DNA of 64,000 bases from Armatimonadota bacterium (GTDB lineage: Bacteria; Armatimonadota; Fimbriimonadia; Fimbriimonadales; Fimbriimonadaceae): NCBI GenBank assembly GCA_016125185.1, contig WGMG01000002.1:248001-312000 (forward strand), in the 5' to 3' direction. Both the position numbers and the translations under genes were made by a program. The notes beneath the pieces were generated by a model, which saw nothing but the letters and a program-made list of their open reading frames with translations, did not search any database and was not told the origin of the DNA. Of the stretch, positions 7,912-27,404 are shown piece by piece (position 1 is the first letter of the stretch; every line of letters begins with the position of its first letter).

Positions 7912-7986
7912 GGGCGGTTAGCTCAGTGGTAGAGCACTACAATGACACTGTAGGGGTCACAGGTTCAAGTCCTGTACCGCCCACCA
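7912..7986 (+). tRNA. tRNA-Val (anticodon GAC)
   Basis: A complete cloverleaf with encoded CCA. The acceptor stem is GGGCGGT/ACCGCCC. The D arm is GCTCAGTGGTAGAGC. The anticodon stem CTACA/TGTAG encloses the loop ATGACAC, whose positions 34-36 read GAC. The T arm is ACAGG-TTCAAGT-CCTGT. It reads GUC codons. Decayed 3' halves of the same tRNA occur at 22598, 24031 and 27261, each starting at the anticodon loop. The downstream flank of this gene is also duplicated at those places. Confidence 0.97.
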
Positions 7987-8138
7987 TTTTCTTTCCCATA
8001 AGAATTAAACGCGCGAGCGATATGGGGCTTGACTGTGAGCCCTTGGGTTACAGAATTCAAGTCTGGAGCGAAGCGATATCCCGCCAAGGGGAAATGAGCG
8101 TAGCGAATCGGGACTGTACCGCCCACCATTTTCTTCTC
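7987..8138 (+). repeat. tRNA-Val downstream spacer, source copy of a dispersed repeat
   Basis: The sequence after the tRNA starts CCATTTTCTTTCCCATAAGA and ends with a second CCGCCCACCATTTTCTTC, so the tRNA 3' end is partly duplicated about 140 bases downstream (near 8118-8135). Between them lies a REP-like block, CCCGCCAAGGGGAAATGAGC then GCGAATCGGGAC (8083-8113). Parts of this spacer recur at 24085-24180 and 27300-27385. The duplicated tRNA 3' end resembles the paired attachment sites left by an integrated element. Confidence 0.6.
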
Positions 8139-8147
8139 GTGTACTTC

Positions 8148-8390
8148 ATGTACATCCTCCAAAGCGAATCAAGCGGACGATTCTACGTCGGTCATACCGA
8201 CGATCTCGACCAACATCTGGAATTCCACAACACGGGACAATCGCATTACACGGCAAGAAGAGGTCCATGGAAGCTCATCTACTCAGAGCCATTCGAAACT
8301 TGCAGCGAAGCGATGAAGCGGGAAGCCGAAATCAAGAAGTGGAAGAGCGCGGCCCTGATTCGAAGGCTCATCGCGGATAGCGAAGTTTAG
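8148..8390 (+). CDS. GIY-YIG domain endonuclease-like protein (UPF0213/YhbQ type)
   Basis: About 80 residues matching the single-domain GIY-YIG pattern: MYILQSESSGRFYVGHTDDL (the GIY...YIG pair appears as MYI and FYVG), then LEFHNTGQSHYTARRGPWKL with the catalytic Arg/His region, SEPFETCSEAMKREAEIKKWK with the metal-binding Glu, and a basic tail. A GTG at 8139 is a possible in-frame alternative start. These small nucleases act in DNA repair or as components of mobile elements. It directly follows tRNA-Val, and a decayed copy with the same end sits at 22662, so it probably travels with the tRNA-linked repeat. Confidence 0.82.
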   Translation: MYILQSESSGRFYVGHTDDLDQHLEFHNTGQSHYTARRGPWKLIYSEPFETCSEAMKREAEIKKWKSAALIRRLIADSEV

Positions 8391-8613
8391 AGCATCCCGA
8401 TTCATCGCGTAACGCTCACCACTCCTCAACGCGGAATGCCCATCGCAGCAACTTCTAGCCAAGGAGGATCATTCTTTCCAGATTCAAGTTCACCCCCTTA
8501 CGAATCCTTTTGATACTGGGGCTTCCTTAGTGACCATAAAGGAGCCTTCACGTGTACGGCGGTTTGCCATGAACGCACCTCTCCACCGAATTGAATTCAG
8601 GCAAGCCGCATGT

Positions 8614-10552: not shown

Positions 10553-11544
10553 GAGCCTTGCTGACTTCTTTCGCTCTTCTCCTGACGGAGAAGAGCGATG
10601 GCATTAACCTAGTCCGTTCCGAGTTCATATACGTATCGGCTCCGTTTCCTTCGTGTCATGCATCAACGATTGTTCAAACGCGAACGGGCAAAATTCTGGC
10701 CGCTTGGTTTGGGGGCAAAGCCGAAAGCAATCCCGACGTGGGAGTTTATGTCTCCGAACTCCAGGGCGATAACTGGACCGTTCCCAAAGAGGTAGCGGTC
10801 GGATACGCCCCAAACGGCGAACGACGCCCCTGCTACAATCCGGTGCTGTTTCAGCCCTCCGGCGGCCCGATTCTGTTGTTCTACAAGGTTGGTACGGGAC
10901 CTCAAGGTTGGTGGGGAATGCTGACGAAGTCCACCGACGATGGACGAACGTGGGACAAGCCGGTTCGGCTTCCCGACGGCATTCTCGGTCCGATCAAGAA
11001 TAAGCCGATGGAACTGCCCGACCACACGCTGATTTGTCCGTCGAGCACAGAGGAGGGCGGCTGGCGAGTTCACTTTGAATTCACCAAGGACTTCGGCAAG
11101 ACATGGACCAAGACCGATCCCGTCAACGACGGCAAGTCAATAGGAGCCATTCAACCCTCTTTGCTAAAACTCCCGGGAGGAAAGCTCCGCGCCGTCGGCC
11201 GAACCCAACAAGGGCGGGTCTTCTCTATTGATTCCAACGACAAAGGCAAGACGTGGGGACCGATGTCGCTCACCGACGTTCCAAACCCCAACTCCGGTTG
11301 TGACGCTATCACACTCAAGGATGGTCGCCATCTCATGGTTTACAACAACACTCCAAGCGGACGTACACCGCTGTGTGTCGCTATTTCGAGCGATGCCAAA
11401 ACCTGGACCCCGGTTCTGACTCTGGAAAGCGACCCAGGCGAATACTCCTATCCTTCGCTGATTCAAACAAAGGATGGATTGGTTCACATTGTCTATACCT
11501 GGCAGAGGAAGCGCATCAAGCACGCCGTCGTCGCTGTGAAATAG
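10546..11544 (+). CDS. BNR-repeat sialidase-like secreted protein
   Basis: About 332 residues forming a six-bladed propeller of the sialidase superfamily. Asp-box-like motifs are visible ([40 protein letters not shown]). The N-terminal stretch [16 protein letters not shown] is a probable signal peptide. The start is uncertain: GTG at 10546 overlaps the end of the pseudopilin gene, and a TTG at 10558 is also possible. Related proteins are called exo-alpha-sialidases, but many act on other sugars. Its neighbours cut fucose and rhamnose, so true sialic acid specificity is doubtful. Translational coupling with the upstream gene is likely. Confidence 0.75.
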
Positions 11545-11735
11545 TGATCTGGTCCGAGCCCTCATGAGCTGGGAACGAGGCTCGGACTAAGAGACTTCAA
11601 CAGTTGGCAGATTTCCGGAATAAGTGTCCCAAAACTGAACGAAAAGTCCGGATCAATGGCAGCCTATCGACCCCGCAGTATCCTGAAGTTGAAGCCACGA
11701 TCTCTACGATCAACGGCGGCGTAGGACTTGGGTCG

Positions 11736-14114: not shown

Positions 14115-16542
14115 ACACGCCCGGTCATTGGCCGGCCGTTTCTGGCTTGCGATTTTGCTGCTTGGGATTACAGGTGTCAGCGCGGCAAGGCCTATGGAAA
14201 CCAGGCCGATGAATCCCGACAGGATTGGCGCGCAACTGGACTCATTGTTTGTCTCGACCGAGGGGTCACCACGAGAGACAACTTCGGGAGCATGCGTCGC
14301 CTTTCGCAAAGCCTTTGAGTTATCCAGCGTGCCCACAAGCGCCACTTTCAATCTCTTTGCCGATGCACGCTACGTGCTTTGGATCAATGGCCGCTACTGT
14401 TCGCGCGGTCCAGCCCGCTTCGAGCCTTCGGGTCCAGAGTACGATCCGATTCCGGTCGCCCAATATCTGAAAGGAGGAAAGAACCAGATTGCCATTCTGG
14501 TGATCGGTCGGGTGAGCAACGGCAAAACTCGCTGGCGTCCCCTCGGAATGACCGCGAACCTGATGGTCGGAAACCGGAGCCTGATTCAGACCGACTCGAC
14601 TTGGCGGTGGAGCGAGGCCACTCGCTATCGAAAAGTCCTAGTCGATTGGGCCAATCTCTATGATGTTGTCGATGCCAGAGCCGAAGACGGCGACTGGACA
14701 AACCCGGAGTATGACGACTCTCGCTGGAAACCGGCTGTCCGAGTCGCTCCAAACCCGACTCTCCTGAAAGTGACAACGCGCGTCGATTGGCAGGAGGACG
14801 CCAGACTCGACGTCAAACCGATCGGTGGCTCGTGGTGGGGACCGCTCTCGAGGAGGCGGACACCGCTCCTGCGAGAGACGAAAGTCGAACCAGCCTGGAC
14901 ATCATTGCTCCCGGTAACGCTTCGCGCCGGCGAAAAAGCCACCTTCCGCTTTGCACACTTGGTGCTGGCAACCACGGGTTTTGAGGCCGACGCTGAAGAA
15001 GGATGCGAGATTCGCTTCAGCTACCTTCCTCAGACGAGCTACATCTGCAAGGGCGGAACTCAGTCCTTCGTCACAACGGACAGCCACGCTATCTTCGAAG
15101 GTTCCATTGAAGTCATTCGAGGTCGAGTCACATTCAAGAAGATTGAGTTTTCCGAACGCCTCTACCCGTTTGCGATGGTCGGCAGTTTTCGGAGTAGCGA
15201 TCCGCTCCTCGATCGCCTTTGGAAGACGTGTGTTCGCGGGCTCGAAGTCACCAGCGAGGATGCCTACGTCGATTGCACGGATCGGGAGCGGGTGGAGTGG
15301 ATGGATACCGATCCTCCCGCTTTCGATGTCACTCGGGTAGCCATGGCCGGACCGCCTATCAACGGGAAGCCGACCTACTCCGACCCAAGGCTTTTGGAGT
15401 CAATGCTCCGCCGAACCGCGCTGACTCTCCAACCCGAGGGATGGGTCAAAGCCCACACTTGCTCGGACCGGTTTGACATTCACGCCAAGATGGAAGACAG
15501 AGCCTGCGACTGGGTAGAAGGCGCTCGAAGGTATGTGGAGTCAACCGGCCAGACGAAGGTCGTGCGGGAGATTTGGCCTGCGATGGTGCGTCAGATGGAC
15601 TATTTCCTATCGCACAAAACCAAGCGCGGTCTCGTATTGGGTCGTGAGTGGACCGTCTGGGGCAACCCCGTCGGCTACCAAACCTGTGAAGGCACCACAC
15701 TCAACGCGTTCGTTTGTCGAGCCTTGTTCGATGCCGCTTCCTTGGGTCGAAAGATCGGCGAGAATAAAGAGGCCCTTCGGTTCGAGGCGGCAGCCAAGGA
15801 ACTATCCAATACGATCAATAAGGTTCTGTGGGATGAGGACGCGGGAACGTACTTTGCTGGTTTTTACGACCTCGACATTGCCAAAGCCGCGCCGGACTAT
15901 CGTCCGCTAAAGCTCCAAGTCACAAATGGGTTGATCGAGCCAACCCGCCATGCCGCCCTGTTCATGCTCGACCAAGGAGTTGTGCCTGCCGATCGGATTG
16001 CAAGGACGACCGCCTATCTCACGTCCCATCCGCCCCACGAAAACGACATCATGCAGTACTACTACTTTTGGAAGCAGTGTTACCGGTTGGATACACCGGA
16101 CGCCGATCTTCAGGTTCTGGATATGATGCGGAGGGAGTGGAAGGACATGGCGGAGAGCCCCTTCGAAGCCACCTTCGAAGGCCTTCATTCGTGGGGTTCG
16201 CAAGCGCACGGATACGGTATGTTCCCTGCGTACTTCCTCAGTTCGTACGTTCTGGGTGTGCGGCGAGAGGGTAACGGGTTGTTGATTGAGCCCCGACTCG
16301 CCGATCTGACCCATGCCTCTGGAGTGGTGGCGACGGAATTCGGCCCGGTCGATGTTGAGTGGAAATTGGGTAAGTCTGGAGGATCATTCAAACTGACCAT
16401 TCCTCGGGGCACAAAAGCGATCCTTCGCCTCCCCGCAGGTCAAGCAACCCTAACAGGCGAGCTCAGCGCCAGATTCAGGAAACATGGTCGCTGGCTGGAA
16501 ATATCTCTGAAGGAAGGGCTATCGGAGGGAACATGGCGATAA
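14101..16542 (+). CDS. GH78 family alpha-L-rhamnosidase
   Basis: 813 residues with an N-terminal signal peptide (WLAILLLGITGVSAA). Beta-sandwich domains follow (ADARYVLWINGRYCSRGP is a typical lectin-like strand pair). The catalytic (alpha/alpha)6 domain begins near ILDRLW-type sequence, with DCTDRERVEWMDTDP corresponding to the family DCPQRERxxWxGDA acid region. The C-terminal beta domain ends VDVEWKLGKSGGSFKLTIPRG. It removes terminal rhamnose from pectin, gums or glycosides. Its start overlaps the GH95 gene. Together with the AraC gene, the pseudopilin and the propeller protein it forms a small polysaccharide-utilisation locus without SusCD. Confidence 0.86.
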   Translation: MTFYEHARSLAGRFWLAILLLGITGVSAARPMETRPMNPDRIGAQLDSLFVSTEGSPRETTSGACVAFRKAFELSSVPTSATFNLFADARYVLWINGRYCSRGPARFEPSGPEYDPIPVAQYLKGGKNQIAILVIGRVSNGKTRWRPLGMTANLMVGNRSLIQTDSTWRWSEATRYRKVLVDWANLYDVVDARAEDGDWTNPEYDDSRWKPAVRVAPNPTLLKVTTRVDWQEDARLDVKPIGGSWWGPLSRRRTPLLRETKVEPAWTSLLPVTLRAGEKATFRFAHLVLATTGFEADAEEGCEIRFSYLPQTSYICKGGTQSFVTTDSHAIFEGSIEVIRGRVTFKKIEFSERLYPFAMVGSFRSSDPLLDRLWKTCVRGLEVTSEDAYVDCTDRERVEWMDTDPPAFDVTRVAMAGPPINGKPTYSDPRLLESMLRRTALTLQPEGWVKAHTCSDRFDIHAKMEDRACDWVEGARRYVESTGQTKVVREIWPAMVRQMDYFLSHKTKRGLVLGREWTVWGNPVGYQTCEGTTLNAFVCRALFDAASLGRKIGENKEALRFEAAAKELSNTINKVLWDEDAGTYFAGFYDLDIAKAAPDYRPLKLQVTNGLIEPTRHAALFMLDQGVVPADRIARTTAYLTSHPPHENDIMQYYYFWKQCYRLDTPDADLQVLDMMRREWKDMAESPFEATFEGLHSWGSQAHGYGMFPAYFLSSYVLGVRREGNGLLIEPRLADLTHASGVVATEFGPVDVEWKLGKSGGSFKLTIPRGTKAILRLPAGQATLTGELSARFRKHGRWLEISLKEGLSEGTWR

Positions 16543-16572: not shown

Positions 16573-16722
16573 GGTCTCTCAATTGTCTCTCAGTAGGAGG
16601 AGATTTTCGGAGACTTCCAGGCTCGTCCGTAGAATCAAAATCAATACTTTGAACCTAAGAAAACTCCCTTGAGGTGGTCGTGTTCACGAGGCGTGAAGGT
16701 TCGAGTCCTTTCCCGCGCACCA
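16573..16722 (+). repeat. Relic element copy 1 joined to a tRNA-Leu(GAG) 3' half
   Basis: Bases 16573-16667 match the family seen at 22513 and 27181 (GTCTCTCAA, TCTCTCA, GGAGGAGA, GGAGACTTC, then CTTTGAACCTAAGAAAACT, shared with copy 2). At 16668 the sequence becomes the 3' half of tRNA-Leu: anticodon loop TTGAGGT, long variable arm, T arm GAAGGTTCGAGTCCTTTC and CCGCGCACCA, ending at 16722. No 5' half exists upstream, so this is not a functional tRNA. It lies just upstream of the copper cluster. Confidence 0.8.
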
Positions 16723-16769
16723 GCTTTCTCTCCAGAAAATGATTCCCTCGGGAAGGACCAGAAGTTTTT

Positions 16770-16850
16770 CCAGCCGTAGGGAAATGTCGAAGATTCCGAG
16801 AGGCTGAGCCGAATCGGAAAGTGAAGCGAATCGGGACTGCACTCCTCAGA
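16770..16850 (-). repeat. Inverted REP-like block
   Basis: In reverse complement this matches the internal block of the elements at 24200 and 25048: CCCGATTCGCTTC, CTTTCCGATTCGGCTCAGCC, TCTCGGAATCTTCG, CATTTCCCT. The block can fold (TTCCGA with TCGGAA). It lies directly downstream of the tRNA-Leu 3' half. The bases 16889-17074 hold no further recognisable feature. Confidence 0.65.
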
Positions 16851-16865
16851 TTCAAATTTCGCTCT

Positions 16866-16888
16866 TTTAGTTTGGAAACCAAACTAAA
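16866..16888. promoter_or_regulatory. Perfect 10-bp stem, 3-nt loop hairpin
   Basis: TTTAGTTTGG-AAA-CCAAACTAAA, 190 bases upstream of the copper cluster. It could be an operator (two 10-bp half-sites), a terminator stem, or the outer end of the repeat beside it. Confidence 0.45.
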
Positions 16889-17074
16889 TTTCAAGTAATA
16901 ATCTGCCGTGTCTCTGAAATATTAAAGCGTACAACGCGGTCGTGCCCTTTCGGACTCTTGCAGCGAAGTTCTAAGTCTTCAAATCGCCTCTGCATTCTGC
17001 CATGCCCGCGGATTTGGGGTTCTTGAAGTTTCGGGAACGAAGATTTCTTCTCATGCGTCATACTCAGTAAGTCG

Positions 17075-17548
17075 ATGGTACGGCTACCACGGGTACTGGC
17101 TACGCTATTCATGCTGTTTGCTCTTATATTGCAAACATCGGCATGTAGCGCCTGCACGATCGGTTGCCTTCTCGGTGTCTGCAGTTCAAAGCAAATCTCA
17201 ACCCTTCATCATGACCACGATGAAGATCGGGGTGGTAGTTGCTGCGATCATGAAAAGGACGAGCCCTCGGTTCACGACCACAGTGGTTTGGCTCAAATCG
17301 GTTCTGAGCACAAGGATTCTTGCGGATGTCCGTCAATTGCAAGCTGCGCCTCTGCGTTTTCGGTGCAGAAACAGGATATCGGGGTTCAGGCTCCCAATGT
17401 CGACCTGCCTGCCACCTTGCCAGATACCCGTGACTTGAAGTTTAGCGTCGTTCGTGTTCCCGAGCCGGGATATTTTGGCAACGACTCTAGCCCACCCGTT
17501 CTTGGTGAGTATGCGCCTGATCACGGTCGGGCTCCTCCAGTTGTGTAA
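17075..17548 (+). CDS. Secreted Cys/His-rich protein, first gene of copper cluster
   Basis: 157 residues. A signal peptide (VLATLFMLFALILQTSACSAC) is followed by clustered Cys and His: CTIGCLLGVCSSKQ, LHHDHDEDRGGSCCDHEKDE, VHDHSG, CGCPSIASC. The second half is plain and proline-containing. I know no family for it. The density of thiol and imidazole ligands, and five downstream copper-type genes on the same strand, suggest a periplasmic or surface metal-binding protein, which is an inference. The gap to the next gene is 81 bases. Confidence 0.65.
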   Translation: MVRLPRVLATLFMLFALILQTSACSACTIGCLLGVCSSKQISTLHHDHDEDRGGSCCDHEKDEPSVHDHSGLAQIGSEHKDSCGCPSIASCASAFSVQKQDIGVQAPNVDLPATLPDTRDLKFSVVRVPEPGYFGNDSSPPVLGEYAPDHGRAPPVV

Positions 17549-17629
17549 AGCTCCCAACCTTGTGCGCTGAAAAGTGGCGCAGCAGGGTTTTTCGGCGTCT
17601 TTGACTACCAATTTCAACTGGATACAAAA

Positions 17630-18244
17630 ATGATCTTTACTACCCTTGTCGCGACAACCGCGATGTCACTCGTCACCCAACAAGCCCCGGCCATCTCTTG
17701 CCCCATCACCGGCGAACCGATCGTTAAGGGCATGAAAGTCACCGAATATAACGGTGCTCGCTTCACGTACTGCTGCGCGGGTTGCGATACGCAATTCGAA
17801 AAAGATCCCAAGGCTGCCCTCGACAAAGCCGCGAAGACCGGCAAGACGATCGGCGTATTCCTTTTCGATCCGGTCAGCATGAAGCGTCTCGAAGCGGACA
17901 AGGCCAAAGGCGGCTTCACCGATTACAAAGGCCTCCGCTTCTACTTCGAGTCAGAAGCCGACAAAGCGGCATTTGACAAGGAACCCGCAAAATTCGGGGT
18001 CCTACCAAAGAAGGAAGCTCTGTACTGCCCTGTGAGCAAAGAAGTCGTCACGTCCTATACCAAGGCAAGCGGATACGGAGACTTTAACGGCACCCGTTAC
18101 TACTTCTGCTGCGGAGGGTGTGAAGGACCGTTTGGTAAAGAGCCGGCAAAGTTTGCCGAAGTCGCGAAGGGACATGTTAAGACCCCTGCTCCAATTGCCG
18201 CTGAGAAGCCAGCACAAAAGAGCGGTGGAGGCGACAACCAATGA
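17630..18244 (+). CDS. Tandem YHS-like metal-binding protein, secreted
   Basis: 204 residues with a short N-terminal signal-like segment. Two YHS/TRASH-type units are seen: CPITGEPIVKGM with FTYCCAGCDTQFEKDP (about residues 24-62), and CPVSKEVVTSY with YYFCCGGCEGPFGKEPAKF (about 130-180). Between them is a degenerate unit that keeps YFESEADKAAFDKEPAKFG but not the cysteines. Each YCCAGC/CP pair is a typical site for Cu or other soft metals. The tail is Lys/Pro/Gly-rich. The TGA stop overlaps the next ATG (ATGA at 18241), so translation is coupled. Probable periplasmic copper carrier. Confidence 0.82.
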   Translation: MIFTTLVATTAMSLVTQQAPAISCPITGEPIVKGMKVTEYNGARFTYCCAGCDTQFEKDPKAALDKAAKTGKTIGVFLFDPVSMKRLEADKAKGGFTDYKGLRFYFESEADKAAFDKEPAKFGVLPKKEALYCPVSKEVVTSYTKASGYGDFNGTRYYFCCGGCEGPFGKEPAKFAEVAKGHVKTPAPIAAEKPAQKSGGGDNQ

Positions 18245-18792
18245 GAGCCTTCACGCTATTTCCGGCTTTGGCCATTACGATCAGCGCCGCCGCTATTAGT
18301 TCCGCCGACGGATTCGCCGTCAGCGGAACGAAGAAACTGACCGTGAGCGCAAGTAGTCTGGCAAAAGCGAGAAGGAAAGCGACGGCTGGAAGTGTAAGCT
18401 CGGACAAGAAGTCGATCACGTTCAGCTCGGCCTCTGCCCAGCTTGTCGTTGAGACCGGACCGAAGAACGATATGATGTCGTATCGAATCCAGAGTTTGCG
18501 CAATCCTTGCCTTGTCGTGAAGCCAGGCGCAACGCTTCATATCCTCTTCGTCAACACCGACGACGATATGCTCCACAGCCTTCGATTCACTTCGGAAGCC
18601 GCTCCGTTTGACGCCAAGATCGGAACGAAAGGCTCGGTTGGCTCAGCCGAACTAAAACCCATGTCGGGCAAGTCTTTCTTCGGGCAGGAATTTGCGATTA
18701 AGGTGCCGGTCAAGAAGGGTTCTTATAGCTATATATGTACGACTGCAGGACACGCCGCCGCAGGTATGTACGGGACCATTACCGTCCGCTGA
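18241..18792 (+). CDS. Cupredoxin (type 1 copper protein), secreted
   Basis: 183 residues with a signal peptide (LFPALAITISAAAISSADG). A long basic linker precedes the cupredoxin fold. Type 1 copper ligands are complete and in the usual order: His112 (DDDMLHSLRF), then Cys166, His171 and Met176 in ICTTAGHAAAGM. This resembles plastocyanin/azurin-like and sulfocyanin-like domains. It should carry single electrons or bind copper in the periplasm, plausibly passing electrons to or from the multicopper oxidase encoded 6 bases downstream. It overlaps the preceding gene by 4 bases. Confidence 0.86.
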   Translation: MRAFTLFPALAITISAAAISSADGFAVSGTKKLTVSASSLAKARRKATAGSVSSDKKSITFSSASAQLVVETGPKNDMMSYRIQSLRNPCLVVKPGATLHILFVNTDDDMLHSLRFTSEAAPFDAKIGTKGSVGSAELKPMSGKSFFGQEFAIKVPVKKGSYSYICTTAGHAAAGMYGTITVR

Positions 18793-18798
18793 GACATC

Positions 18799-20058
18799 AT
18801 GAGCAAAGACAAACCAAGTGAAAACAACGAGGAAACTCTCGGTCGGCGAGAACTCCTCAAGCTAGGAGGTATCGGACTCGGAACCGGACTCATGGGCAAT
18901 GCTTTCGGGCAACAAGGGCACAGGGCTACTGCGCAGCAACAGGTGTCGCAGTGGCCCTCGGCCTTCGATCCGCTAGAAACCCATCCGCCGTACCCGCCGC
19001 GCGACCGCCCGAAACCGGGCGAAAAGATTCATGTTCACGACATCGAGGTAACGATTGAGGTTCACGAAATCGTGCCGGGCGTCCAGACCCACATGTTCAT
19101 GTTCAACAAGTCGTATCCCGGCCCGGAAATTAGGGTCAAGGAAGGCGACTGGGTGCAGATCAATCTTAAAAACAGCAGTCCCGAATTCCATACCATTCAT
19201 TGGCACGGCATCATGGTCCCCATGGAAATGGACGGCGTGCCCCTGGGAACTCAGTGGCCAGTTGGTCCTAACCAGGAGTTCCGATATCTGTGGAAGGCGC
19301 AGCCGGCCGGCACGCACTTCTATCATTGCCACGTTATGACAACGCTCCACCAACAGGCGGGTCTTGTCGGATCTCTGATCGTCGAGCCCAAGGAGCCCGA
19401 TATCGTGCAGAAGACGTTCCCGTACAAGCGCGAATACACCATGATCTTGAGCGAACTTGACACCAATTTCGTTCGCAACATGATGTCCGAGATGGTTGAG
19501 ATGGGCGTCCAAATGGAGCGAATGAACCACAGCGCAAAGATGATGCGAGAAATGAACGGCAAGATGATGGGTTGGTTCAAATCGAAAGAGGAGTTCGTGA
19601 AGGCGGTCAAGAACGGGTACATCCCGCCGTATCTGGCGGCGAGAACCGGAACGGCAATGCCCATCACGCCGAACTACTTCATGATCAACGGAAAGTCGTA
19701 TCCGATGACCGATCCCCTCATGATTCGGCGCGACGAGAACATTCGGGTCCGGCTCATTGCCGGAGGCTTCATGCCGCACTTCATCCACCTTCATGGGCAT
19801 GACTTCTGGCACGTCTGCCAAGACGGATCGCCCCTGGCGGCGCCGGTGCGGATGAACACAATTCCAATCTATCCTGGCACAACCAGCGACATTGTAATCC
19901 AAGGTACGAACCCGGGATTCTGGCATTTCCACGACCATAGCGATCTGTGTACGACCAATAACGGCCAACATCCGGGCGGGATGATGACCATGCTAATGTA
20001 CGAAGATGCTCGTGAGGCGGGCATCAAGTGGGAAGAGGTCATCGCGATCAGCTCATAG
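18799..20058 (+). CDS. Two-domain multicopper oxidase, Met-rich
   Basis: 419 residues with a Tat-type signal (GRRELLKLGGIGLGTGL). Domain 1 carries IHWHG (His134/136) and HFYHCHVMTTLH (His176, Cys177, His178, His184). Domain 2 carries HFIHLHGHD (His327-334) and WHFHDHSD (His378, Asp379, His380). The trinuclear-site histidines are present, but the usual type 1 Cys of the last motif is Asp379, so the type 1 copper must be in domain 1. Residues 228-258 are very Met-rich (12 Met in about 31), like the cuprous-oxidase inserts of CueO. The likely role is oxidation of periplasmic Cu(I). Neighbours support copper handling. Confidence 0.88.
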   Translation: MSKDKPSENNEETLGRRELLKLGGIGLGTGLMGNAFGQQGHRATAQQQVSQWPSAFDPLETHPPYPPRDRPKPGEKIHVHDIEVTIEVHEIVPGVQTHMFMFNKSYPGPEIRVKEGDWVQINLKNSSPEFHTIHWHGIMVPMEMDGVPLGTQWPVGPNQEFRYLWKAQPAGTHFYHCHVMTTLHQQAGLVGSLIVEPKEPDIVQKTFPYKREYTMILSELDTNFVRNMMSEMVEMGVQMERMNHSAKMMREMNGKMMGWFKSKEEFVKAVKNGYIPPYLAARTGTAMPITPNYFMINGKSYPMTDPLMIRRDENIRVRLIAGGFMPHFIHLHGHDFWHVCQDGSPLAAPVRMNTIPIYPGTTSDIVIQGTNPGFWHFHDHSDLCTTNNGQHPGGMMTMLMYEDAREAGIKWEEVIAISS

Positions 20059-20076
20059 AAACAGGAGTAAAGGCAA

Positions 20077-21294
20077 ATGAAAACACAAATTAAATACATC
20101 GGAATCTTGGCCACAAGCGCTCTTACTGCTGCGTCTGGAGCACAGACTCAACAATCCCCTGTGCAGCAAATTAGTCTGCAACCGCAAATTGAAATCGCCG
20201 GCTCGGGGCTTGCAACGCTGGATTTCGGCCGCGAAGGCATGTTTGGCGGTAGAGGCATAGGAAGCCGAAGCCAGATCAACTTTTCGGACTCGTCGTTGAG
20301 CTTCGGTGTTGCCCAGCGAATGTATCGAGGGGCCATCGGCAGTTTTACCCTTGGCGGCGTTGCAATCGACGAAGCAAACAGCGGGCACGGAAAGCAGGTC
20401 TTCATGCATCAGGCGTTCGCAGATTTCCAAGAATTGCGCTTCGAAGGATATATCGGACGGACCAATACGCCGACCGCTCAAATCGTTGAGTTTCCGACGA
20501 TCCGGGAGGACGACCTGGTGGACTATACGTCGGTTCTGAATCCCTTCTCGAACGGAGCTAACCCCGAAGAACACCGCTATAGCAATGTTGCGGGCATCGT
20601 GTTTAACGGCGATCTTCACCACTTCCTCAATGTTCATGCGCAGCACCAGATCGACAGTGCCGGGGTTGGACAAAGCGACAGCGGGCTTAACTCGGTGGGA
20701 ATCAGTTTCCAGTATGAAGGCAACCCAGCTCTAAGCACCATCGATCGCTTTCCGTCCTATGGCTTCGGTCTCGAAAGTCGAGCCATCAACAAAAGCTTCG
20801 GCGGGACATCGAATGTCTTCTATGGCGGTGGAGTCCTCAATTTGCAGCCGGGCCTCGTGGATAAGCTGGATTTACGCCTTTTGGGCCAAGTGTCGTTTGG
20901 CAACGATACCAACACGCTAACCACGCTCAATGACACGTACCGGGCCGATCAGGAGTCGATTGCGCTATCGCTGCGCAAACTCTACAGCCCGTTCGGAAAA
21001 CCGGCGTCGCAAATCGCCATGACCGCCGGAATGAAGCGTTATTCAAAGGTGCCCAATGCGAACTCCTATGGTGTCGCCTTGAGTTACGGGAAGAACTTGG
21101 GCCAAGGCTTCGACTTTGTTTCTCAGCTTGGCTACGAGCGTCGAAGCAGCGGGATGACTATGGCTTTTGGCGGTCACAGTGACGCCCTGGTCTTACAGTT
21201 TGGACTTTCGTTCAACTTTGGCTCAACCTTCAATCAGAGCATCGGACCGCGCAGGTCGCCGACGAACCTGCTCCACCAATACATTCCAAATTAA
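20077..21294 (+). CDS. Putative outer-membrane beta-barrel of copper cluster
   Basis: 405 residues with a signal peptide (YIGILATSALTAASGAQ). Alternating amphipathic strands with many Gly, Ser, Phe and Tyr (SFTLGGVAIDE, LRFEGYIGRTN, FGLESRAINKSFGG) follow, ending near a strand LVLQFGLSFNFG. This is the look of an outer-membrane barrel, although no named family is recognised. In PcoA/PcoB-type systems the oxidase gene is followed by an outer-membrane copper protein, and this gene has that position 18 bases after the oxidase. Its N-terminus lacks the Met/His repeats of CopB, so homology to CopB is not claimed. Confidence 0.65.
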   Translation: MKTQIKYIGILATSALTAASGAQTQQSPVQQISLQPQIEIAGSGLATLDFGREGMFGGRGIGSRSQINFSDSSLSFGVAQRMYRGAIGSFTLGGVAIDEANSGHGKQVFMHQAFADFQELRFEGYIGRTNTPTAQIVEFPTIREDDLVDYTSVLNPFSNGANPEEHRYSNVAGIVFNGDLHHFLNVHAQHQIDSAGVGQSDSGLNSVGISFQYEGNPALSTIDRFPSYGFGLESRAINKSFGGTSNVFYGGGVLNLQPGLVDKLDLRLLGQVSFGNDTNTLTTLNDTYRADQESIALSLRKLYSPFGKPASQIAMTAGMKRYSKVPNANSYGVALSYGKNLGQGFDFVSQLGYERRSSGMTMAFGGHSDALVLQFGLSFNFGSTFNQSIGPRRSPTNLLHQYIPN

Positions 21295-21303
21295 GGAGTC
21301 ACC

Positions 21304-22449
21304 ATGTTAAGAAAACAACTGTACTCACTTCTCTTCGTTTCGACATTCTCGGCTTCTCTGCCTGCTTTTCAACAGAACCCTCCCGCTGGCGGCAGAACTC
21401 TTGAAGCTTCGGCCGTCATTAAGCCTGCCGCACCTAAAACGGGCGAGAACGTCCTTGAGATCACCTTCATGGAAGGCTCAAAGCCGGTCGCCGGCTTGAA
21501 GCTTGTCTCAAACGTGGGCATGACAAACATGGATATGGGGACGGCCCATCCCGCGGTAAGAGAAACCGCACCTGGACACTACACCTTGAAGCCCATGTTT
21601 CTGATGGACGGTCCGTGGCGGGTAACCCTCATCAGCAAAGACCCCAAATTCACCGTCAACTTTGACATGACTTCGGGGGCAAAGGGACCGTGGAAACCAA
21701 CCAAACAAACGATAAAGATCGGCGAATCGGGAACTCCCGCAGTTCAGCCCAAGGATAAGACTGAGCCGCCGAAAACTGATCCGAAGGGGACGGATTCTCC
21801 CAAAAAGGACCCCGCGAAGACTGAACCTTCCACCACCGAGCCCGTAAACCAAGACCCGAAAAAGGAGCCGACAAAACCGGAGCAAGGCTATGACATGACA
21901 AGCATGGGACACGTTGCAGTGTCGATGCCCCAACTGAAGGAAAAGTCCTCCTATGAGTGGACAGGCAACGAAGACTGGGATACTCGAACTGGATTTGGCA
22001 AGCTTGAGCCGATGGTCAAAATGATGATTCTCATGATGGTGTCCGGTTCCGGCATGGAAGGGATGAAAATGCTCCCCATGGATATGGTGTTCAATGCCGA
22101 AAACTTTAGCGAAGGTGGTGATTCCCCGATGAAAGACATGCCCATGGCAAACTCAAAAGCCTTGAAGGTCGAGGCCAAGATTGAGAAGGCTGGTATCGGT
22201 GACAATAACGTCTCCATCACAATCAACACACCGGATGGTAAGGCCGTGACCGGTGCGAAGATCACGACCGCCGTCGCGATGACGAACATGGATATGGGCA
22301 CGACTCACCCGGCGGTTAAGGACCTCGGCAAAGGCAAGTACGCTGTAAAGGCCACCTTCAGCATGAGGGGACCTTGGCGACTTACACTCATCGTTTCGGC
22401 AACCGGAATGCAGCCACTGACTTATACCTTTGATTTTCAGGCGAAGTAG
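21304..22449 (+). CDS. Protein with two YtkA/FixH-like Met-rich domains
   Basis: 381 residues with a signal peptide (YSLLFVSTFSASLPAF). Two similar domains are visible: residues about 35-125 (VGMTNMDMGTAHPAV, FLMDGPWRVTLI) and about 285-378 (VAMTNMDMGTTHPAV, FSMRGPWRLTLI). The MTNMDMG/HPAV/GPWRVTL pattern is that of YtkA-like domains, and the Met groups could bind Cu(I). Between them lie a Lys/Pro/Thr linker (about 140-200) and another Met-rich piece (MKMLPMDMVFN, MKDMPMANS). It is the last gene of the copper run. Probable periplasmic copper-binding or chaperone protein. Confidence 0.72.
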   Translation: MLRKQLYSLLFVSTFSASLPAFQQNPPAGGRTLEASAVIKPAAPKTGENVLEITFMEGSKPVAGLKLVSNVGMTNMDMGTAHPAVRETAPGHYTLKPMFLMDGPWRVTLISKDPKFTVNFDMTSGAKGPWKPTKQTIKIGESGTPAVQPKDKTEPPKTDPKGTDSPKKDPAKTEPSTTEPVNQDPKKEPTKPEQGYDMTSMGHVAVSMPQLKEKSSYEWTGNEDWDTRTGFGKLEPMVKMMILMMVSGSGMEGMKMLPMDMVFNAENFSEGGDSPMKDMPMANSKALKVEAKIEKAGIGDNNVSITINTPDGKAVTGAKITTAVAMTNMDMGTTHPAVKDLGKGKYAVKATFSMRGPWRLTLIVSATGMQPLTYTFDFQAK

Positions 22450-22512
22450 ATGAATCGAAATGGAGCGCGTTTGAAGAACAAACCAGAGGAGACTCATGCT
22501 GCGAGGTGATTC

Positions 22513-22642
22513 AGTCTCTCAATTTGAGGAGAAATTGAGAGACTTCTGGGCATCTCTGTGGATTCGAAACCTTCTCTTTGAACCTCAAGAAACTTGGATG
22601 ACACTGTAGGGGGTCATCCCGATTCATCGGGACACCCCGCCA
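22513..22642 (+). repeat. Relic element copy 2 joined to a decayed tRNA-Val 3' half
   Basis: AGTCTCTCAA, GAGGAGA, GAGAGACTTCT and CTTTGAACCTCAAGAAACT match copy 1. At 22598 it becomes ATGACACTGTAGGGGGTC, the anticodon loop and stem of tRNA-Val(GAC). A changed T arm (CCCGATTCATCGGG) and ACCCCGCC follow, ending near 22642. It lies 64 bases after the copper cluster, so copies 1 and 2 bracket that cluster in the same orientation. Confidence 0.78.
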
Positions 22643-22661
22643 ACTTCGTCAGGTGCCAATC

Positions 22662-22857
22662 ACGTACATCCCCCAAGGTGATTCTACGTCTGCCATACAG
22701 ATCACTCAATCCAACGCTTGGATTTTCGCCATTACTCGGCATCGCCCCATCAGAGCCGTTCGAGACTCGCGATGAGCCGATGAAACGAGAATGAGAAATC
22801 AGGCGGCGGAAGAGTGGCGATCTTTTTCGAGAATGAATAGCCGATGGCGAAGTTTAG
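22662..22857 (+). pseudogene. Decayed GIY-YIG gene copy
   Basis: Nucleotide identity to the intact gene at 8148-8390 is clear in blocks: GTACATCC, GATTCTACGTC, CATAC, ATCACTC, CAGAGCCGTTCGAGACT, GCGATGA, GGAAGAG, GGCGAAGTTTAGAG. Deletions and stops destroy the frame. It follows the tRNA-Val 3' relic exactly as the intact gene follows intact tRNA-Val. The stretch 22858-22976 holds nothing else recognisable. Confidence 0.75.
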
Positions 22858-22976
22858 AGTGACCGATTCTCTACTGACAACCAGCGGCGTGTTAAGTCTT
22901 CTTCTTTTGTCCTGTGGAACGAAGCGTCACCTATCAGAGAGGAAAAAAATTCAAGACTAGGCGTAGACTCATCAAC

Positions 22977-23951
22977 ATGAAAATCGCTTTGATGTGGCAC
23001 GGAAGTCGGGAGACCAGAGATGCCGTCAACCTGGACGAGCACCGCTTGGCCCCAACCGCCGCCGCATTCCGGACAGAAGGATTCGAAGTCGAGCCATGTG
23101 TCTACAATGACAACTTTGCCGATGAAGTTCGGGCGCAGCTTAGGCACGTGGACGCCGTCCAGGTTTGGGTCAATCCGATCACCGATGAAGGACGGACGCG
23201 CGCCAAGCTCGACGCTTTGCTTGCCGAGATAGCCGATTCGGGAGTGCTGGTCCGAACCCATCCTGCGACCATCCAGAAGATGGGCACGAAGGAAGTGCTA
23301 TTCACGACACGCGAAATGAGTTGGGGCTCGGACGTTCGCCGCTACTCGACGATGGACGAAATGCGTCACGGGCTCGTCGGTTCGCTCTCTACCGGACCGC
23401 GAGTGCTGAAGCAGTTTCGCGGACATAGCGGCCAGGGCATCTGGAAACTGACTCCCACCAGCGACCCGGAACGAGTCCTTGCACGACACGCCCCGAGGGG
23501 CAGCCAGGAGGAAGAACTTCCCCTCGAGCAGTGGATCGAGAACTGCGCCCCCTATTTCGCCACCGGCCCCATGTACGATCAGGAATACAACCTCCGAATC
23601 GGGGAAGGCACGATCCGGTGCTATTTTGTGCAAGACCGAATCGAAGGATTTGGCCACCAAGAAGTGAACGCGCTTGTGCCGGGGACCGATTCCGGCCCTC
23701 GTCTCTATTCTCCGCCGACCGATGAACGCTTCCAAGACCTTAGGCGGCAGGCCGAATCGGAGTGGCTGCCCCAACTGATGGAGAAGGTCGGCGTTACGTT
23801 CGACGAACTTCCGATGCTCTGGGACATCGATTTGATGTTTGCCGATCGTGGCTATATGCTCTGCGAGATCAACGTGAGCTCGGTCTATCCCTACCCGGAA
23901 AGCGCGATGCAACCCCTCGCAAGGGCCTTCAAAAATCGGATCTCGAGCTAG
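22977..23951 (+). CDS. Cj0069-family ATP-grasp-like protein
   Basis: 324 residues of the Cj0069 family: MKIALMWHGSRETRDA start, VQVWVNPITDEGRTRAKLDA, LVRTHPATIQKMGTKEVLF, then GPRVLKQFRGHSGQGIWKL, the glycine-rich nucleotide loop of an ATP-grasp fold. LWDIDLMFADRGYMLCEINVSSVYPYPES carries the acidic metal ligands. ATP-grasp enzymes join a carboxylate to an amine or thiol, but the substrate of this family is not known to me. The ATG at 22977 is preferred over a longer frame from 22914. It lies between two tRNA-linked repeat copies. A different ATP-grasp gene is at 62820. Confidence 0.82.
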   Translation: MKIALMWHGSRETRDAVNLDEHRLAPTAAAFRTEGFEVEPCVYNDNFADEVRAQLRHVDAVQVWVNPITDEGRTRAKLDALLAEIADSGVLVRTHPATIQKMGTKEVLFTTREMSWGSDVRRYSTMDEMRHGLVGSLSTGPRVLKQFRGHSGQGIWKLTPTSDPERVLARHAPRGSQEEELPLEQWIENCAPYFATGPMYDQEYNLRIGEGTIRCYFVQDRIEGFGHQEVNALVPGTDSGPRLYSPPTDERFQDLRRQAESEWLPQLMEKVGVTFDELPMLWDIDLMFADRGYMLCEINVSSVYPYPESAMQPLARAFKNRISS

Positions 23952-23984
23952 TTTGCTCTTTCATCTGGCAGAGACCGTCTAAGA

Positions 23985-24199
23985 CTTCCCAAAGAGTCTA
24001 TTTTGCCCGTCTGATTCGGTGAAGACATCGATGACACGTAGGACCATTTGGGCCTTGGTCTCCGCTTGGGGCCAAAATCATTTCTGACGATCGGTTTGAC
24101 CTGTGACATCCTCTGAGTCGCAGAGTTCAGGTTTGGGGCGAAGCGAGGGGGAATGGAATCGGAACTATACCGCCCACTATTTCCTATTCCATTTTTTGC
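23985..24199 (+). repeat. Relic element copy 4 with tRNA-Val fragment and flank
   Basis: TTGCCCGTCTGATTCGGTGAAGA (from about 24003) aligns with the end of copy 3. ATGACACGTAGGACC at 24031 matches the tRNA-Val anticodon loop onward. Bases 24085-24180 match the tRNA-Val downstream spacer at 8026-8130, including GTTCAGGTTTGGGGCGAAGCG and ACCGCCCACTATTTCC. It is the most decayed of the four copies. Confidence 0.6.
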
Positions 24200-24415
24200 G
24201 TGGTGATACAATCGCTCTTATGAGGGTTGGTGAATTTCAATCCGCTACCAGGGTTCCAACATATCCTCTCAACATCGTCCCGATTCGCTTCGCTTTCCGA
24301 TTCGGCTCAGCCTCTCGGAATCTTCGCTCATTTCCCTTTGGCGGGATCCATCGACAGATTTTCGGGTATGCAGAGCACTCCTGAAGCCGACATTTGTCCC
24401 GCTCACGAAAGTGGC
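24200..24415 (+). repeat. MITE-like element C (left end missing)
   Basis: It matches elements A and B from the inner GGTG.TACAAT...TTATGA block to the end: GGTGAATTTCAATCCGCTAC, TTCCGATTCGGCTCAGCC, GGCGGGATCCATCGACAG, then the right terminal repeat TTTTCGGGTATGCAGAGCAC (24359-24378) and the shared outer tail CATTTGTCCCGCTCACGAAAGTGGC. The left terminal repeat is absent because copy 4 abuts it. The orphan ORF at 24454 starts about 40 bases later. Confidence 0.7.
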
Positions 24416-24453
24416 TCGCCGTTCTGGCAATAGCGACCGTTGCCTAGTTTGAC

Positions 24454-24915
24454 ATGAGACTAAGGGTTATTAGATTCAGGCGATTTACCCGCACACTGCT
24501 GGTAACCGCTATAGCTGCATCAGTGGCAATATTACTTTTGGGCACGAGACGTGAACCATTTAGCTTTCTGCGGTCAGGCTATCTTAAGAGAGTGGATATG
24601 GGTCGATTCTCAACAAACCCGACTGGTACTGTATCGGAATTCGATGAATATGTAGTGCCCATCGATTGTACGGCACTCTTGTTATCGAGCAGAGACGAAT
24701 TAAATACCCGAGGATTTGCATTATATTCAAAAGACGAAAAGTCAACAATATATGCAAATATGGGAGACTCAAGCTATATTGAATTTTCCAACCAGCCTAA
24801 AACGGCGTCGATAAATCGACTACCAAATTGTACCGTTACGTATGCTCGTTCCTTGGATGAGACAATTTGGACCAAGATTAAGTTTGAGATTTACCTTCTA
24901 CAACATAGAGATTAG
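24454..24915 (+). CDS. Orphan membrane-anchored protein, AT-rich
   Basis: 153 residues. A basic N-terminus (MRLRVIRFRRFTR) and one hydrophobic helix (TLLVTAIAASVAILLLG) are followed by about 120 residues of soluble, probably extracytoplasmic sequence with two Cys (VPIDCTALL, LPNCTVTY). No family recognised. Base composition is clearly more AT-rich than the surrounding genome. The gene follows element C by about 40 bases, the same relation seen for the ORFs at 25419 and 26655. Coding status rests on length, composition and context only. Confidence 0.5.
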   Translation: MRLRVIRFRRFTRTLLVTAIAASVAILLLGTRREPFSFLRSGYLKRVDMGRFSTNPTGTVSEFDEYVVPIDCTALLLSSRDELNTRGFALYSKDEKSTIYANMGDSSYIEFSNQPKTASINRLPNCTVTYARSLDETIWTKIKFEIYLLQHRD

Positions 24916-25047
24916 TGAAAGACAAACCTAGTAGAAAAGCCGACAGACGCTCGTTGTCGCTTAAAATGACCAAGTGTATGAGTTAGGGCTGATCAGTCCC
25001 CATTTCCTGACCAGGTTAGAGTTGACGAGCATTTCGTGAACTGACCA

Positions 25048-25405
25048 GTCACTATGTGAGATGGGTTAACCGAGTGGCCCGCATACCCGAAGGATACGTA
25101 GGGTCTTTTGCGGCCAGACTCATGGTCCTCGGGTTTCGTGTTGGATTTGGAGTTCGAACGATGTCCAACACCTTCTCGCGCTTGGTGTTACAATCAAACT
25201 TATGAAGGTCGGCGAATTTCAAACTCGCTCGGCTACCGGAGTGCCTGCATATCCTCTCAGCTTCGTCCGGATTCATATCGCTTTCCGATTCGGCTCAGCC
25301 TCTCGGAATCTTCGACATTTTCCTTTGGCGGGATCCGTCGACAGATTTTCGGGTATGCAGGCCACACCTGAAGTTGACATTTGTCCCGCCCACGAAAGTG
25401 GCTCT
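25048..25405 (+). repeat. MITE-like element A with terminal inverted repeats
   Basis: The left terminal repeat GAGTGGCCCGCATACCCGAA (25072-25091) and right TTCGGGTATGCAGGCCACAC (25348-25367) are inverted copies matching at 18 of 20 positions. Inside are GTCTTTTGCGGCCAGACTCA, TGTCCAACACCTTCTCGC, a TTACAAT box and the REP-like TTCCGATTCGG block. Similarity to element B also covers both outer flanks (GACCAGTCAC on the left, CCCGCCCACGAAAGTGGCTC on the right). The right end touches the ribosome site of the ORF at 25419. The bases 24916-25047 hold no feature. Confidence 0.75.
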
Positions 25406-25418
25406 CCAGAGGTGCAAA

Positions 25419-25796
25419 ATGAGTAAGGTGAATTATCTTTCAAATAGGGGCAACTCCGGATCAATTCTCAGGCAGTCAATGGAGATGTCTTGGTATTTCG
25501 CTCGAATATCTTTTGGAATTGTTGCACTTTTTGTTATGTTTGCCCATCCAATGCACGAATATTTGACAGGTGATGTGGTCCCACAGGTTTGGTCAATGAT
25601 TGCTGCTGCACTGATTACTTTGGTTCTCGGCAGAACGGTCTTTATTACGATCTGTGCGGTTAGGCGAGAAAAGTGCTTTTCATCCCGCGTTTTAGTTCCG
25701 CCTCCGTCATTTGTGGCCACTTTAATATATGGTTCACTGTGTTTCCTAAGTATTGCGGTGAAAGTCCTGTTTATTGCTAGCCCTAGCATGAAATAG
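25419..25796 (+). CDS. Orphan three-helix membrane protein, AT-rich
   Basis: 125 residues. Three hydrophobic segments are visible: YFARISFGIVALFVMFAHPM, VWSMIAAALITLVLGRTVFI and FVATLIYGSLCFLSIAVKVL. The ATG at 25419 has the ribosome site AGAGGTG 4-9 bases upstream, right after the tail of element A, which therefore supplies the start region. A longer frame from 25374 runs inside the repeat. No family recognised and AT-rich codon use. Possibly a cassette-borne membrane protein; function unknown. Confidence 0.55.
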   Translation: MSKVNYLSNRGNSGSILRQSMEMSWYFARISFGIVALFVMFAHPMHEYLTGDVVPQVWSMIAAALITLVLGRTVFITICAVRREKCFSSRVLVPPPSFVATLIYGSLCFLSIAVKVLFIASPSMK

Positions 25797-25989
25797 TTTT
25801 TGTTCACTATTGGCAAGCCACTGGAAAGGTGTTGACGAACCCTCTTCAGTTTGTTACCGGCTATCTTCTATATCGTTGATGCAAGGACGCGAGAAGCCTC
25901 AATCGTCGCTATTCGGTTCGACTCCTTAGGAGTCTTTGCTGGCAGAGGACCATCCTTTGCGCAAGATTCGCTCAGATTTCAATGTCTGA

Positions 25990-26180
25990 TATGTGCGTTT
26001 AGCGTCTGCGTTCGAGACGAGCTACGGCCAGGTTGGCAATCCGAGCGTTCCGACTCCGGTTCTTCTTCGGGCGTGGCTTTTGATGGCTCTGTACAGCATC
26101 AGGAGCGAGCGGGCTTTGTGCGAGCAGATTACGATGAACGCGAGCTCTCGCTGGTTCGTTGGACTGGACCAGTCACGGCG
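25990..26180 (+). pseudogene. IS1182/IS5-type transposase N-terminal remnant
   Basis: In one frame the sequence reads FETSYGQVGNPSVPTPVLLR, then AWLLMALYSIRSERALCEQI, then NASSRWFVGLDQS. This is the N-terminal DUF772 region of IS1182-like transposases (pattern LLxALxLQxLYSIRSERxLxEQIxxNLxxRWFVGL). There is no upstream start domain and no catalytic DDE part. Similarity stops where element B begins. The rest of 25797-25989 shows no gene. Confidence 0.72.
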
Positions 26181-26494
26181 TGAGTTGGGTTAATGGAGTG
26201 GCCTGCGTACCCGAAGGATACGCAGGGTCTTTTGCGGCCAGACTCATGGTCCTCGGCTTTGGGGTTGGATTGAAAGCACCGGACGGTGTCCAACACCTTC
26301 TCGCACTTGGTGTTACAATGGCGCTTATGAGGGTTGGTGAATTTCAATCCGCTACCAGGATTCCAGCATATCCTCTCAACATCGTCCCGATTCGCTTCAC
26401 TCATTTCCCTTTGGCGGGATCCATCGACAGATTTTCGGATATGCAGGCCGCTCCTGAAGCTGACATTTGTCCCGCCCATGAAAGTGGCTCGCCC
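26170..26494 (+). repeat. MITE-like element B with terminal inverted repeats
   Basis: The left repeat GAGTGGCCTGCGTACCCGAA (26196-26215) and right TTCGGATATGCAGGCCGCTC (26434-26453) match at 17 of 20 inverted positions. The interior parallels element A but lacks the central TTCCGATTCGG...GGAATCTTCG block, so it is shorter. The left end can also form a local CCTGCGTA/TACGCAGG hairpin with a UUCG loop on the minus strand. It abuts the transposase remnant. Bases 26495-26654 separate it from the ORF at 26655 and show no gene. Confidence 0.75.
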
Positions 26495-26654
26495 GAGGTA
26501 GTACTAGAAGCTGAGGTTTGCATTGGGCTGTCGGCATTTCTGACCAAAATTGAAGGATGCGGCACCTGTAAGGAACCCCCAGGCGAGGTTGGGTGGGTTG
26601 ATCCAACGTTCACATTCGAGTGGACCTCAGCTACCCCATCCATTGGAATAAAGG

Positions 26655-27128
26655 TTGGTGGAAAGCGTGAAAAGTGCAAGTGACGATAGTCGTTTTGGAT
26701 ATGGCAATTATGCTAGATTTGTTCTAATCCTTGGATTCTTGATCTCATCGGGCGTGGACGCGGTGTTCATCGTTGTGAGTGTCCGAATGCTTCTGAATAA
26801 CCGTTTGGATCAAGTGTTGCTGGGATCCATCGCTATAGTTCTTACTAGCATAGTTGTATCTGTAGTTAGCTACCTTTTCTTTGTCGTTTGTAAAACCGAT
26901 TTAGTCATACTCAAAGACGGCCTAGCTGAGTTCAGATTTGGCACAAAGAAGAATTCTATATTATGGGACGATGTTGAAGACTTGGAGACTTTCCTTAATA
27001 AGTCCGTTCGTACTTTCGTCGTTTATGGTAAGGAAAATCAGTCAATAATGTTCAGTGCATCTTTGCCGCGATATAAGAGGCTTGTGCGGGAGATTGAAGC
27101 GAGGACCTCGAAAAGCTTCAATAAGTGA
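26655..27128 (+). CDS. Orphan membrane protein with PH-like C-terminal domain, AT-rich
   Basis: About 155 residues. Two helices (ARFVLILGFLISSGVDAVFIVV and LLGSIAIVLTSIVVSVVSYLFFVV) are followed by a C-terminal beta domain: LVILKDGLAEFRFGTKKNSI, LWDDVEDLETF, VRTFVVYGKENQSIMFS, ending in a helix (RYKRLVREIEARTS). This is the usual layout of bacterial PH-like membrane proteins. The start is uncertain: TTG 26655, GTG 26658 or GTG 26667. It is AT-rich like the other island ORFs. Coding status is more secure than for its neighbours because of the recognisable domain pattern. Confidence 0.6.
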   Translation: MVESVKSASDDSRFGYGNYARFVLILGFLISSGVDAVFIVVSVRMLLNNRLDQVLLGSIAIVLTSIVVSVVSYLFFVVCKTDLVILKDGLAEFRFGTKKNSILWDDVEDLETFLNKSVRTFVVYGKENQSIMFSASLPRYKRLVREIEARTSKSFNK

Positions 27129-27180
27129 AGTTTTCTCGGACGACATTGGTGTGCCTTTGATTTGCTTGGAGATATGTTCT

Positions 27181-27385
27181 AGTCTCTCAAATGTCTCTCA
27201 ATTGGAGGAGACGTCTGGAGATTTCTAGACATGCCCGAAGATTCAATGTACGAGAACTCCCACGACACTATAGGGGTCATCCCGATCGGGATACCGCCAC
27301 CATTTTCTTCCCTTAAGAACCAAAACGCATCAGCGGTATGGGGCTTAGCCGTGGGTAAAAAGGGCACGGACTTCAATTCTTGAGC
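27181..27385 (+). repeat. Relic element copy 3 joined to a tRNA-Val 3' half and its flank
   Basis: AGTCTCTCAAATGTCTCTCA, TTGGAGGAGA, GGAGATTTCT and AGAACTCCC match copy 1. At 27261 it becomes CACGACACTATAGGGGTC (tRNA-Val anticodon arm), then CCCGATCGGG and ATACCGCCACCA ending at 27302. The next 80 bases match the tRNA-Val downstream spacer (CATTTTCTTCCCTTAAGAA, TATGGGGCTT). It closes the island on the right. Confidence 0.8.
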
Positions 27386-27404
27386 ATGAAATTCCCACGG
27401 CCAT

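Follow-up and report, generated by a model that had tools for sequence, protein, structure and literature searches.

Probable attachment-site scars of a tRNA-targeting tyrosine-integrase family around a copper gene cluster in an Armatimonadota genome

A 64,000-nucleotide stretch of an Armatimonadota genome (assembly GCA_016125185.1, contig WGMG01000002.1, positions 248,001 to 312,000 of the forward strand; hereafter the window) contains a copper gene cluster and, on both sides of it, short related repeats that run into the 3' parts of tRNA genes. An initial annotation, made from the sequence alone, had regarded these repeats as scars of one mobile family that delivered the copper genes. The locus therefore raises the questions of what kind of element left the repeats and whether it also brought the genes lying between them. 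Comparison with related genomes makes it very probable that the repeats are scars of the right attachment site (attR) of integrative elements moved by one tyrosine-integrase family, with the copper cluster most likely as its cargo.

Right-arm scars in the window

A DNA profile of the repeat, here called the right arm, was built solely from arms of other genomes and matched the window at three places (16573-16667, 22514-22594, and 27181-27247; E values in Table 1). The next match had an E value of 2.7, and 20 Markov-shuffled windows yielded a single match (E 0.67). A model search of the whole 4.5-Mb genome returned the three window arms and one on another contig (C1), and no others. In all three copies (copies 1, 2, and 4) the arm gives way to the 3' part of a tRNA just where the anticodon loop starts, so that the junction falls at the same point across copies, as initially described. 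Four such segments had been counted at first, one with tRNA-Leu(GAG) and three with tRNA-Val(GAC). Both searches recover three of them (16573, 22513, and 27181), whereas the segment at 23985 (copy 3) has no arm match in either search and its tRNA part scores 20, which is random-like (400 random 87-mers reach a maximum of 32 in this tRNA-half scoring); it was therefore rejected as an arm with a tRNA-Val half, which leaves Leu once and Val in two copies. The Leu(GAG) half of copy 1 is well preserved, and the anticodon part is retained in both Val halves (15/16 in copy 4), which have the same altered T-arm (TCCCGAT..CGGGA). A 5' half is indeed missing at the scars, but their partner, an intact tRNA-Val(GAC), lies in the same window and had been left unconnected to them.

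Table 1. Features of the scars, the island, and its cargo in the window
Feature	Position	Strand	Evidence
Intact tRNA-Val(GAC), target gene of the island	7912..7986	+	ARAGORN, Rfam RF00005
Stretch following tRNA-Val, without left arm; paralogue of the flank past copy 4	7987..8115	+	Local alignment score 95 vs shuffled maximum 28
Extra tRNA-Val 3' end (about 8115-8131), then single-domain GIY-YIG gene	8115..8390	+	Sequence; PF01541 E 2e-16
Copy 1, right arm of the element family	16573..16668	+	nhmmer E 4e-19 (other-genome profile); E 2e-17 whole genome
Displaced tRNA-Leu(GAG) 3' half, anticodon loop onward	16669..16722	+	55/59 matches including 5 nt before the loop
Copper cluster, six genes	17075..22449	+	Pfam; 81% DNA identity to G011:C56:337110-342523
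Copy 2, right arm	22513..22597	+	E 7e-13 (other-genome profile); E 4e-11 whole genome
Decayed tRNA-Val(GAC) 3' half of copy 2	22598..22642	+	18/19 over the anticodon part, then altered T-arm
GIY-YIG gene relic after the Val half of copy 2	22643..22870	+	Alignment to 8115-8400, score 127; tblastn 63% over 35 aa
Stretch between copies 2 and 4: DUF6815 protein (22971-23951), three repeat units of ~1 kb with one orphan ORF after each, all different	22971..27128	+	
Copy 4, right arm	27181..27261	+	E 8e-14 (other-genome profile); E 9e-13 whole genome
Decayed displaced tRNA-Val(GAC) 3' half of copy 4, distal border of the island	27262..27302	+	Alignment, sequence
Chromosomal flank past the island, resembling the flank after tRNA-Val	27303..27400	+	Alignment; G024 empty site confirms the position

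Intact elements and their tRNA targets

An intact copy with an integrase, which the initial annotation had proposed to look for, is present on contig C1 of the same genome, and such copies with left arms are likewise present in relatives. The C1 element spans 26.7-65.4 kb. At one end, tandem GTCTCTCAATTG sites lie beside a complete tRNA-Leu(GAG) (C1:65339-65424, minus strand), with GGTCTCTCAATTGGTCTCTCAATTG about 80 nt beyond, and at the other end, 38.7 kb off, the same right arm adjoins an identical copy of the Leu 3' half that begins with the anticodon loop. The element encodes a tyrosine integrase of 377 aa (C1:57988-59121; PF00589, E 3e-10), and it also encodes a Replic_Relax protein, a TrwB-like coupling ATPase (TrwB_AAD_bind), an ArdC protein, and a large serine recombinase, along with NTPases that look defence-like. 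The integrase, the Replic_Relax protein, the TrwB-like ATPase, the ArdC protein, and the large serine recombinase are common to full-size members, and little of this backbone is found in the elements of G040, where three integrase genes stand in tandem about 11 kb apart. The large serine recombinase (G000:C1:45148-47037; L042 10151-12037) was observed in 7 of the 13 element segments compared, though the element borders fit the tyrosine integrase.

At the thresholds used, 28 of 85 genomes in the same taxonomic family contain homologues of the integrase, as do 28 of 291 in the phylum, nearly all of them from that family. Beside these integrase genes lie tRNA genes of several kinds and, in the majority of cases, two or three tandem GTCTCTCA-type sites. 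Soon after the CCA the left arm opens with AGGTTCAAA or TTTGAACCT, and it has the tandem sites at its far end; the right arm (~97 nt) consists of tandem GTCTCTCA sites, GAGACTTCC, GTAGATTCAAAA, and TTGAACCT. In G011 and G018 (Leu GAG), G040 (Val GAC), G077 and G078 (Arg CCT), and G022 (Pro GGG), the displaced 3' half is identical to the intact tRNA; it differs from it at 1 position in G004 and 5 positions in G035. By the same tRNA-half scoring, 54 of the 60 distinct right arms outside the window (C1 copy included) lead into the 3' half of a tRNA in a common register, although one of these (L210) aligned to a whole tRNA slightly further on and is to be discounted. The targets of the 54 arms are Arg(CCT) (16), Val(GAC) (9), Leu(GAG) (8), Pro(GGG) (8), Val(TAC) (6), Val(CAC) (4), Thr(GGT) (2), and Arg(CCG) (1), giving eight isoacceptors in total. 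The remaining tRNA halves start at, or just ahead of, the anticodon loop, which fits strand exchange across its 7 nt, as is established for lambda-type recombinases (PMC8371274). No viral relative was found in IMG/VR with the peptide patterns used. Intact copies, together with the empty site described below, thus bear out the proposal of one tRNA-targeting tyrosine-recombinase family using several tRNAs, whose range in relatives extends to at least eight isoacceptors.

Group I introns occur in tRNA anticodon loops as well, and the repeats might for this reason be viewed as remains of group I or other introns, an alternative which had been raised at the outset. However, an Rfam scan of the window gave tRNA as its sole match and no intron family, a 5' half lies beside none of the scars, and the same arms flank integrase-bearing elements with an intact tRNA. 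Such pairs of left and right attachment sites (attL/attR) with an integrase between them refute this explanation, whose probability we consider negligible; introns are not involved.

In the integration process suggested by the paired sites, a circular element would carry a tRNA 3' half joined to the left arm (2-3 tandem GTCTCTCAATTG sites preceded by AGGTTCAAA or TTTGAACCT) as well as the right arm. The integrase would bind the arms and swap strands across the 7-nt anticodon loop of a chromosomal tRNA, after which the element-borne 3' half would restore the tRNA beside the left arm and the old 3' half would be pushed past the right arm. We infer the binding of GTCTCTCAATTG by the integrase and the exact cleavage points.

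Changes of target were followed on a maximum-likelihood tree of 33 integrases, each labelled with its nearest tRNA, which is usually directly adjacent. The labels require 10 changes versus a shuffled mean of 20, and integrase clades largely follow the target tRNA: Leu users form a single clade (100/100), as do Arg(CCT) users (99/99). Users of Val and Thr surround the Leu clade (enclosing clade 99/91), which is drawn beside the Val(GAC) integrase of G018 (92/87), implying that the integrase likely switched from a tRNA lacking a long variable arm to one that has it. The N-terminal part of the integrase showed no special conservation (52% versus 50% and 58% between users of different targets).

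The island at tRNA-Val(GAC) and its cargo

The intact tRNA-Val(GAC) and copy 4 are the true outer bounds of the island. An empty site, which was also to be sought in relatives, was found on contig C27 of G024, where the gene order is CysS, a GH18-like gene, tRNA-Val(GAC), an acyl-CoA dehydrogenase-like gene, and then orthologues of the window genes at 28622, 33682, and 36094 (protein identities of 58%, 61%, and 52%, respectively; CysS is 81% identical to window 3203 and the GH18-like protein 58% to window 6821). In G024, tRNA-Val is thus directly followed by genes located past copy 4 in the window, so that the window genome has in addition all that lies from tRNA-Val (7912) to the flank of copy 4 (27303), and an intact tRNA-Val at one border with a displaced tRNA-Val 3' half at the other is the signature of integration at tRNA-Val. 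Because neither integrase nor left arm remains in the window, the stretch of 7.99-27.30 kb is, judged by its sequence, a decayed, integrase-less island array at tRNA-Val(GAC), and it would be the remnant of elements stacked at this gene whose integrase and left arms were lost. G008 was rejected as a second empty site: its tRNA-Val is near a GH18-like gene, but the downstream genes are unlike those of the window. The SDR gene at 27405 did not serve as a synteny anchor, as no other member of the genus has it at E <= 1e-50. The first half of the island (8600-16540) encodes an AraC-type regulator, a pilin-like DUF1559 protein, a BNR-repeat protein, GH95, and an alpha-L-rhamnosidase-like enzyme.

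The six genes of the copper cluster encode a YHS protein, a cupredoxin-like protein, a multicopper oxidase, a two-domain YtkA-like protein, and two further proteins that fall in no Pfam family. Their closest relative is found in G011 (81% DNA identity over 5.4 kb; about 95% protein identity for the multicopper oxidase), where the cluster lies inside a 122-kb array of the same element family at tRNA-Leu(GAG), with right arms at 268.3, 274.6, 289.9, 324.2, 326.3, and 345.6 kb. The outermost G011 arm borders on a sulfatase gene, and in the window genome the orthologue of this gene borders on the C1 attR, which places the G011 array and the C1 element at the same chromosomal site. Elements of G077 at tRNA-Arg(CCT) encode a P-type ATPase with an HMA domain, a CsoR-type repressor, and YHS proteins, with homologues in G078 and partly in G004, which indicates that metal cargo is recurrent in the family. 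The copper genes could nevertheless have come otherwise (for instance by homologous recombination or with an unrelated island) and merely lie between two real scars. Such a route would fit the oxidase homologues in G032, G027, G058, and G006, genomes without detected family arms, which imply that the cluster exists outside the family too; it would also fit the inverted orientation of the G011 cluster relative to the arms and the unlike tRNA halves flanking the window cluster. We nevertheless consider it unlikely, given the position of the closest relative inside a family array, the recurrent metal genes, and the end of the window cluster only 64 nt ahead of the right arm. Most likely, the cluster was thus carried by an element of the family, as in G011. 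Of the initial claim that the family delivered the copper genes between copies 1 and 2, the association with the family is supported by the G011 array; delivery to the precise site in the window, where no integrase is left, we infer from that array.

The orphan genes had been placed between copies 2 and 3, a bracket that fails with copy 3; if anything, they lie between copies 2 and 4. The region 24100-27130 consists of three ~1-kb units that have in common a repeat of about 280 bp with a conserved short frame, M(K/R)VGEFQ..., and the orphan ORFs that follow the units are all different and without a Pfam match, in a cassette-like arrangement. A near-identical 50-bp repeat beginning CGAAGATTCCGAGAGGCTGAGCCGAATCGG occurs at 16788-16837, 24277-24326, and 25278-25314, in both orientations, and stretches related to it are located near other tRNA loci. 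It is quite possible, though somewhat short of probable, that the whole stretch of 22.6-27.2 kb is a local repeat expansion between two scars and not a family element, considering the three units with their different ORFs, the matches of repeat parts elsewhere in the genome, and the lack of a mobility gene. Against such an expansion, the two bounding arms are fused to Val halves with the same altered T-arm, as stacked elements could be.

Several observations weigh against the interpretation of the window repeats as attR scars with copper cargo, the inverted G011 cluster being one of them. G024 is the sole clear empty site, neither an integrase nor an integrase relic was found in the window, and the left-arm search there gave only cross-matches to right arms. 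In copies 2 and 4 the Val halves show decay and score 31 and 36, near the random maximum, so that their tRNA identity also leans on the register; for copy 2, position and register weigh more than its score. About 150 nt from the anticodon loop on are paralogous between 7942-8090 and 27262-27400, which is unexpected because simple integration would place a left arm after the tRNA. Another tRNA-Val 3' end lies before the GIY-YIG gene, and duplication via a shared tRNA 3' end could be the source of both the paralogous flanks and the pairs of tRNA-Val ends and GIY-YIG genes. Finally, the Leu scar of copy 1 sits within the Val island, which simple stacking does not predict: either part of a tRNA-Leu array was brought into tRNA-Val by an element, or there was recombination between arms.

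Leu-type elements have the arms nearest to those of copies 2 and 4, although these sequences are short, and the extant Val(GAC) element of G018 has a similar AACTCCC core edge. Descent of the Val scars from Leu elements was considered, but the arms are too short to settle it. Since the right arms of the Val scars are closest to those of Leu-using elements and the Leu scar lies inside the Val island, the window may record mixing between targets. We tentatively suggest, as a possible but rather doubtful scenario, that a fixed arm module with an exchangeable core allowed the integrase to be retargeted among the anticodon loops of at least eight isoacceptors, across the boundary set by the long variable arm.

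Single-domain GIY-YIG genes are possibly a second, separate kind of tRNA-associated gene. The whole genome has three such loci (window 8142-8390, G000:C11:17221-17394, and G000:C11:81373-81587), each with a tRNA gene no more than about 300 bp away (Val GAC, Ala GGC, and Ala CGC), and the only other GIY-YIG domain belongs to a 620-aa UvrC-like frame.

Relation to known integrative elements

Literature searches returned nothing on such elements in Armatimonadota, which is weak evidence of absence, and as far as we found the family is undescribed. It would account for part of the shifting gene stock in these Armatimonadota (metal handling and defence-like genes) and would carry copper-handling genes between related members. 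The arm profile detects integrase-less scars, and the family offers a compact natural series for studying target change of an integrase, with about 30 full-length integrases, about 60 junctions, and eight isoacceptors at a nearly constant arm.

The mechanism is classical tRNA-targeted integration and is textbook apart from the target range. Full-size members, which share a Replic_Relax protein and a TrwB-like ATPase beside the integrase, may be compared with integrative and conjugative or integrative and mobilizable elements; no complete type IV secretion system was identified, though no systematic search for one was made, and the 11-kb G040 elements have little of such a backbone. Among archaeal integrase families with target diversification, 14 tRNA genes have been reported for pT26-2-related elements, and crossing between tRNAs with and without a long variable arm has been reported not to occur (PMC8371274). 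Like these pT26-2-type (suicidal) integrases, a single family here covers many tRNA genes, but its attachment site (tRNA half and arms) lies outside the integrase ORF, and users of Leu, with its long variable arm, and of Val and Thr are neighbours, unlike in the archaeal families, a comparison limited to archaea. Well-known precedents are the Islander islands in tRNA genes (PMC4383910, citing Williams 2002), which have an anticodon-centred site (subsite A), occur in tandem arrays, and leave a displaced 3' fragment. The present elements are similar to these subsite A islands in having an intact tRNA at one end and, at the opposite end, a displaced 3' fragment that points the same way, in having a tyrosine integrase inside, and tandem arrays (as in G040 and G011). 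The tRNA and its same-orientation fragment are found on C1, in seven relatives, and in the window (tRNA-Val and copy 4), and the integrase inside the element is found on C1 and in relatives but not in the window island, so that a search requiring an integrase would miss the latter. Unlike the Islander islands, they represent one family with a nearly constant arm that uses at least eight isoacceptors.

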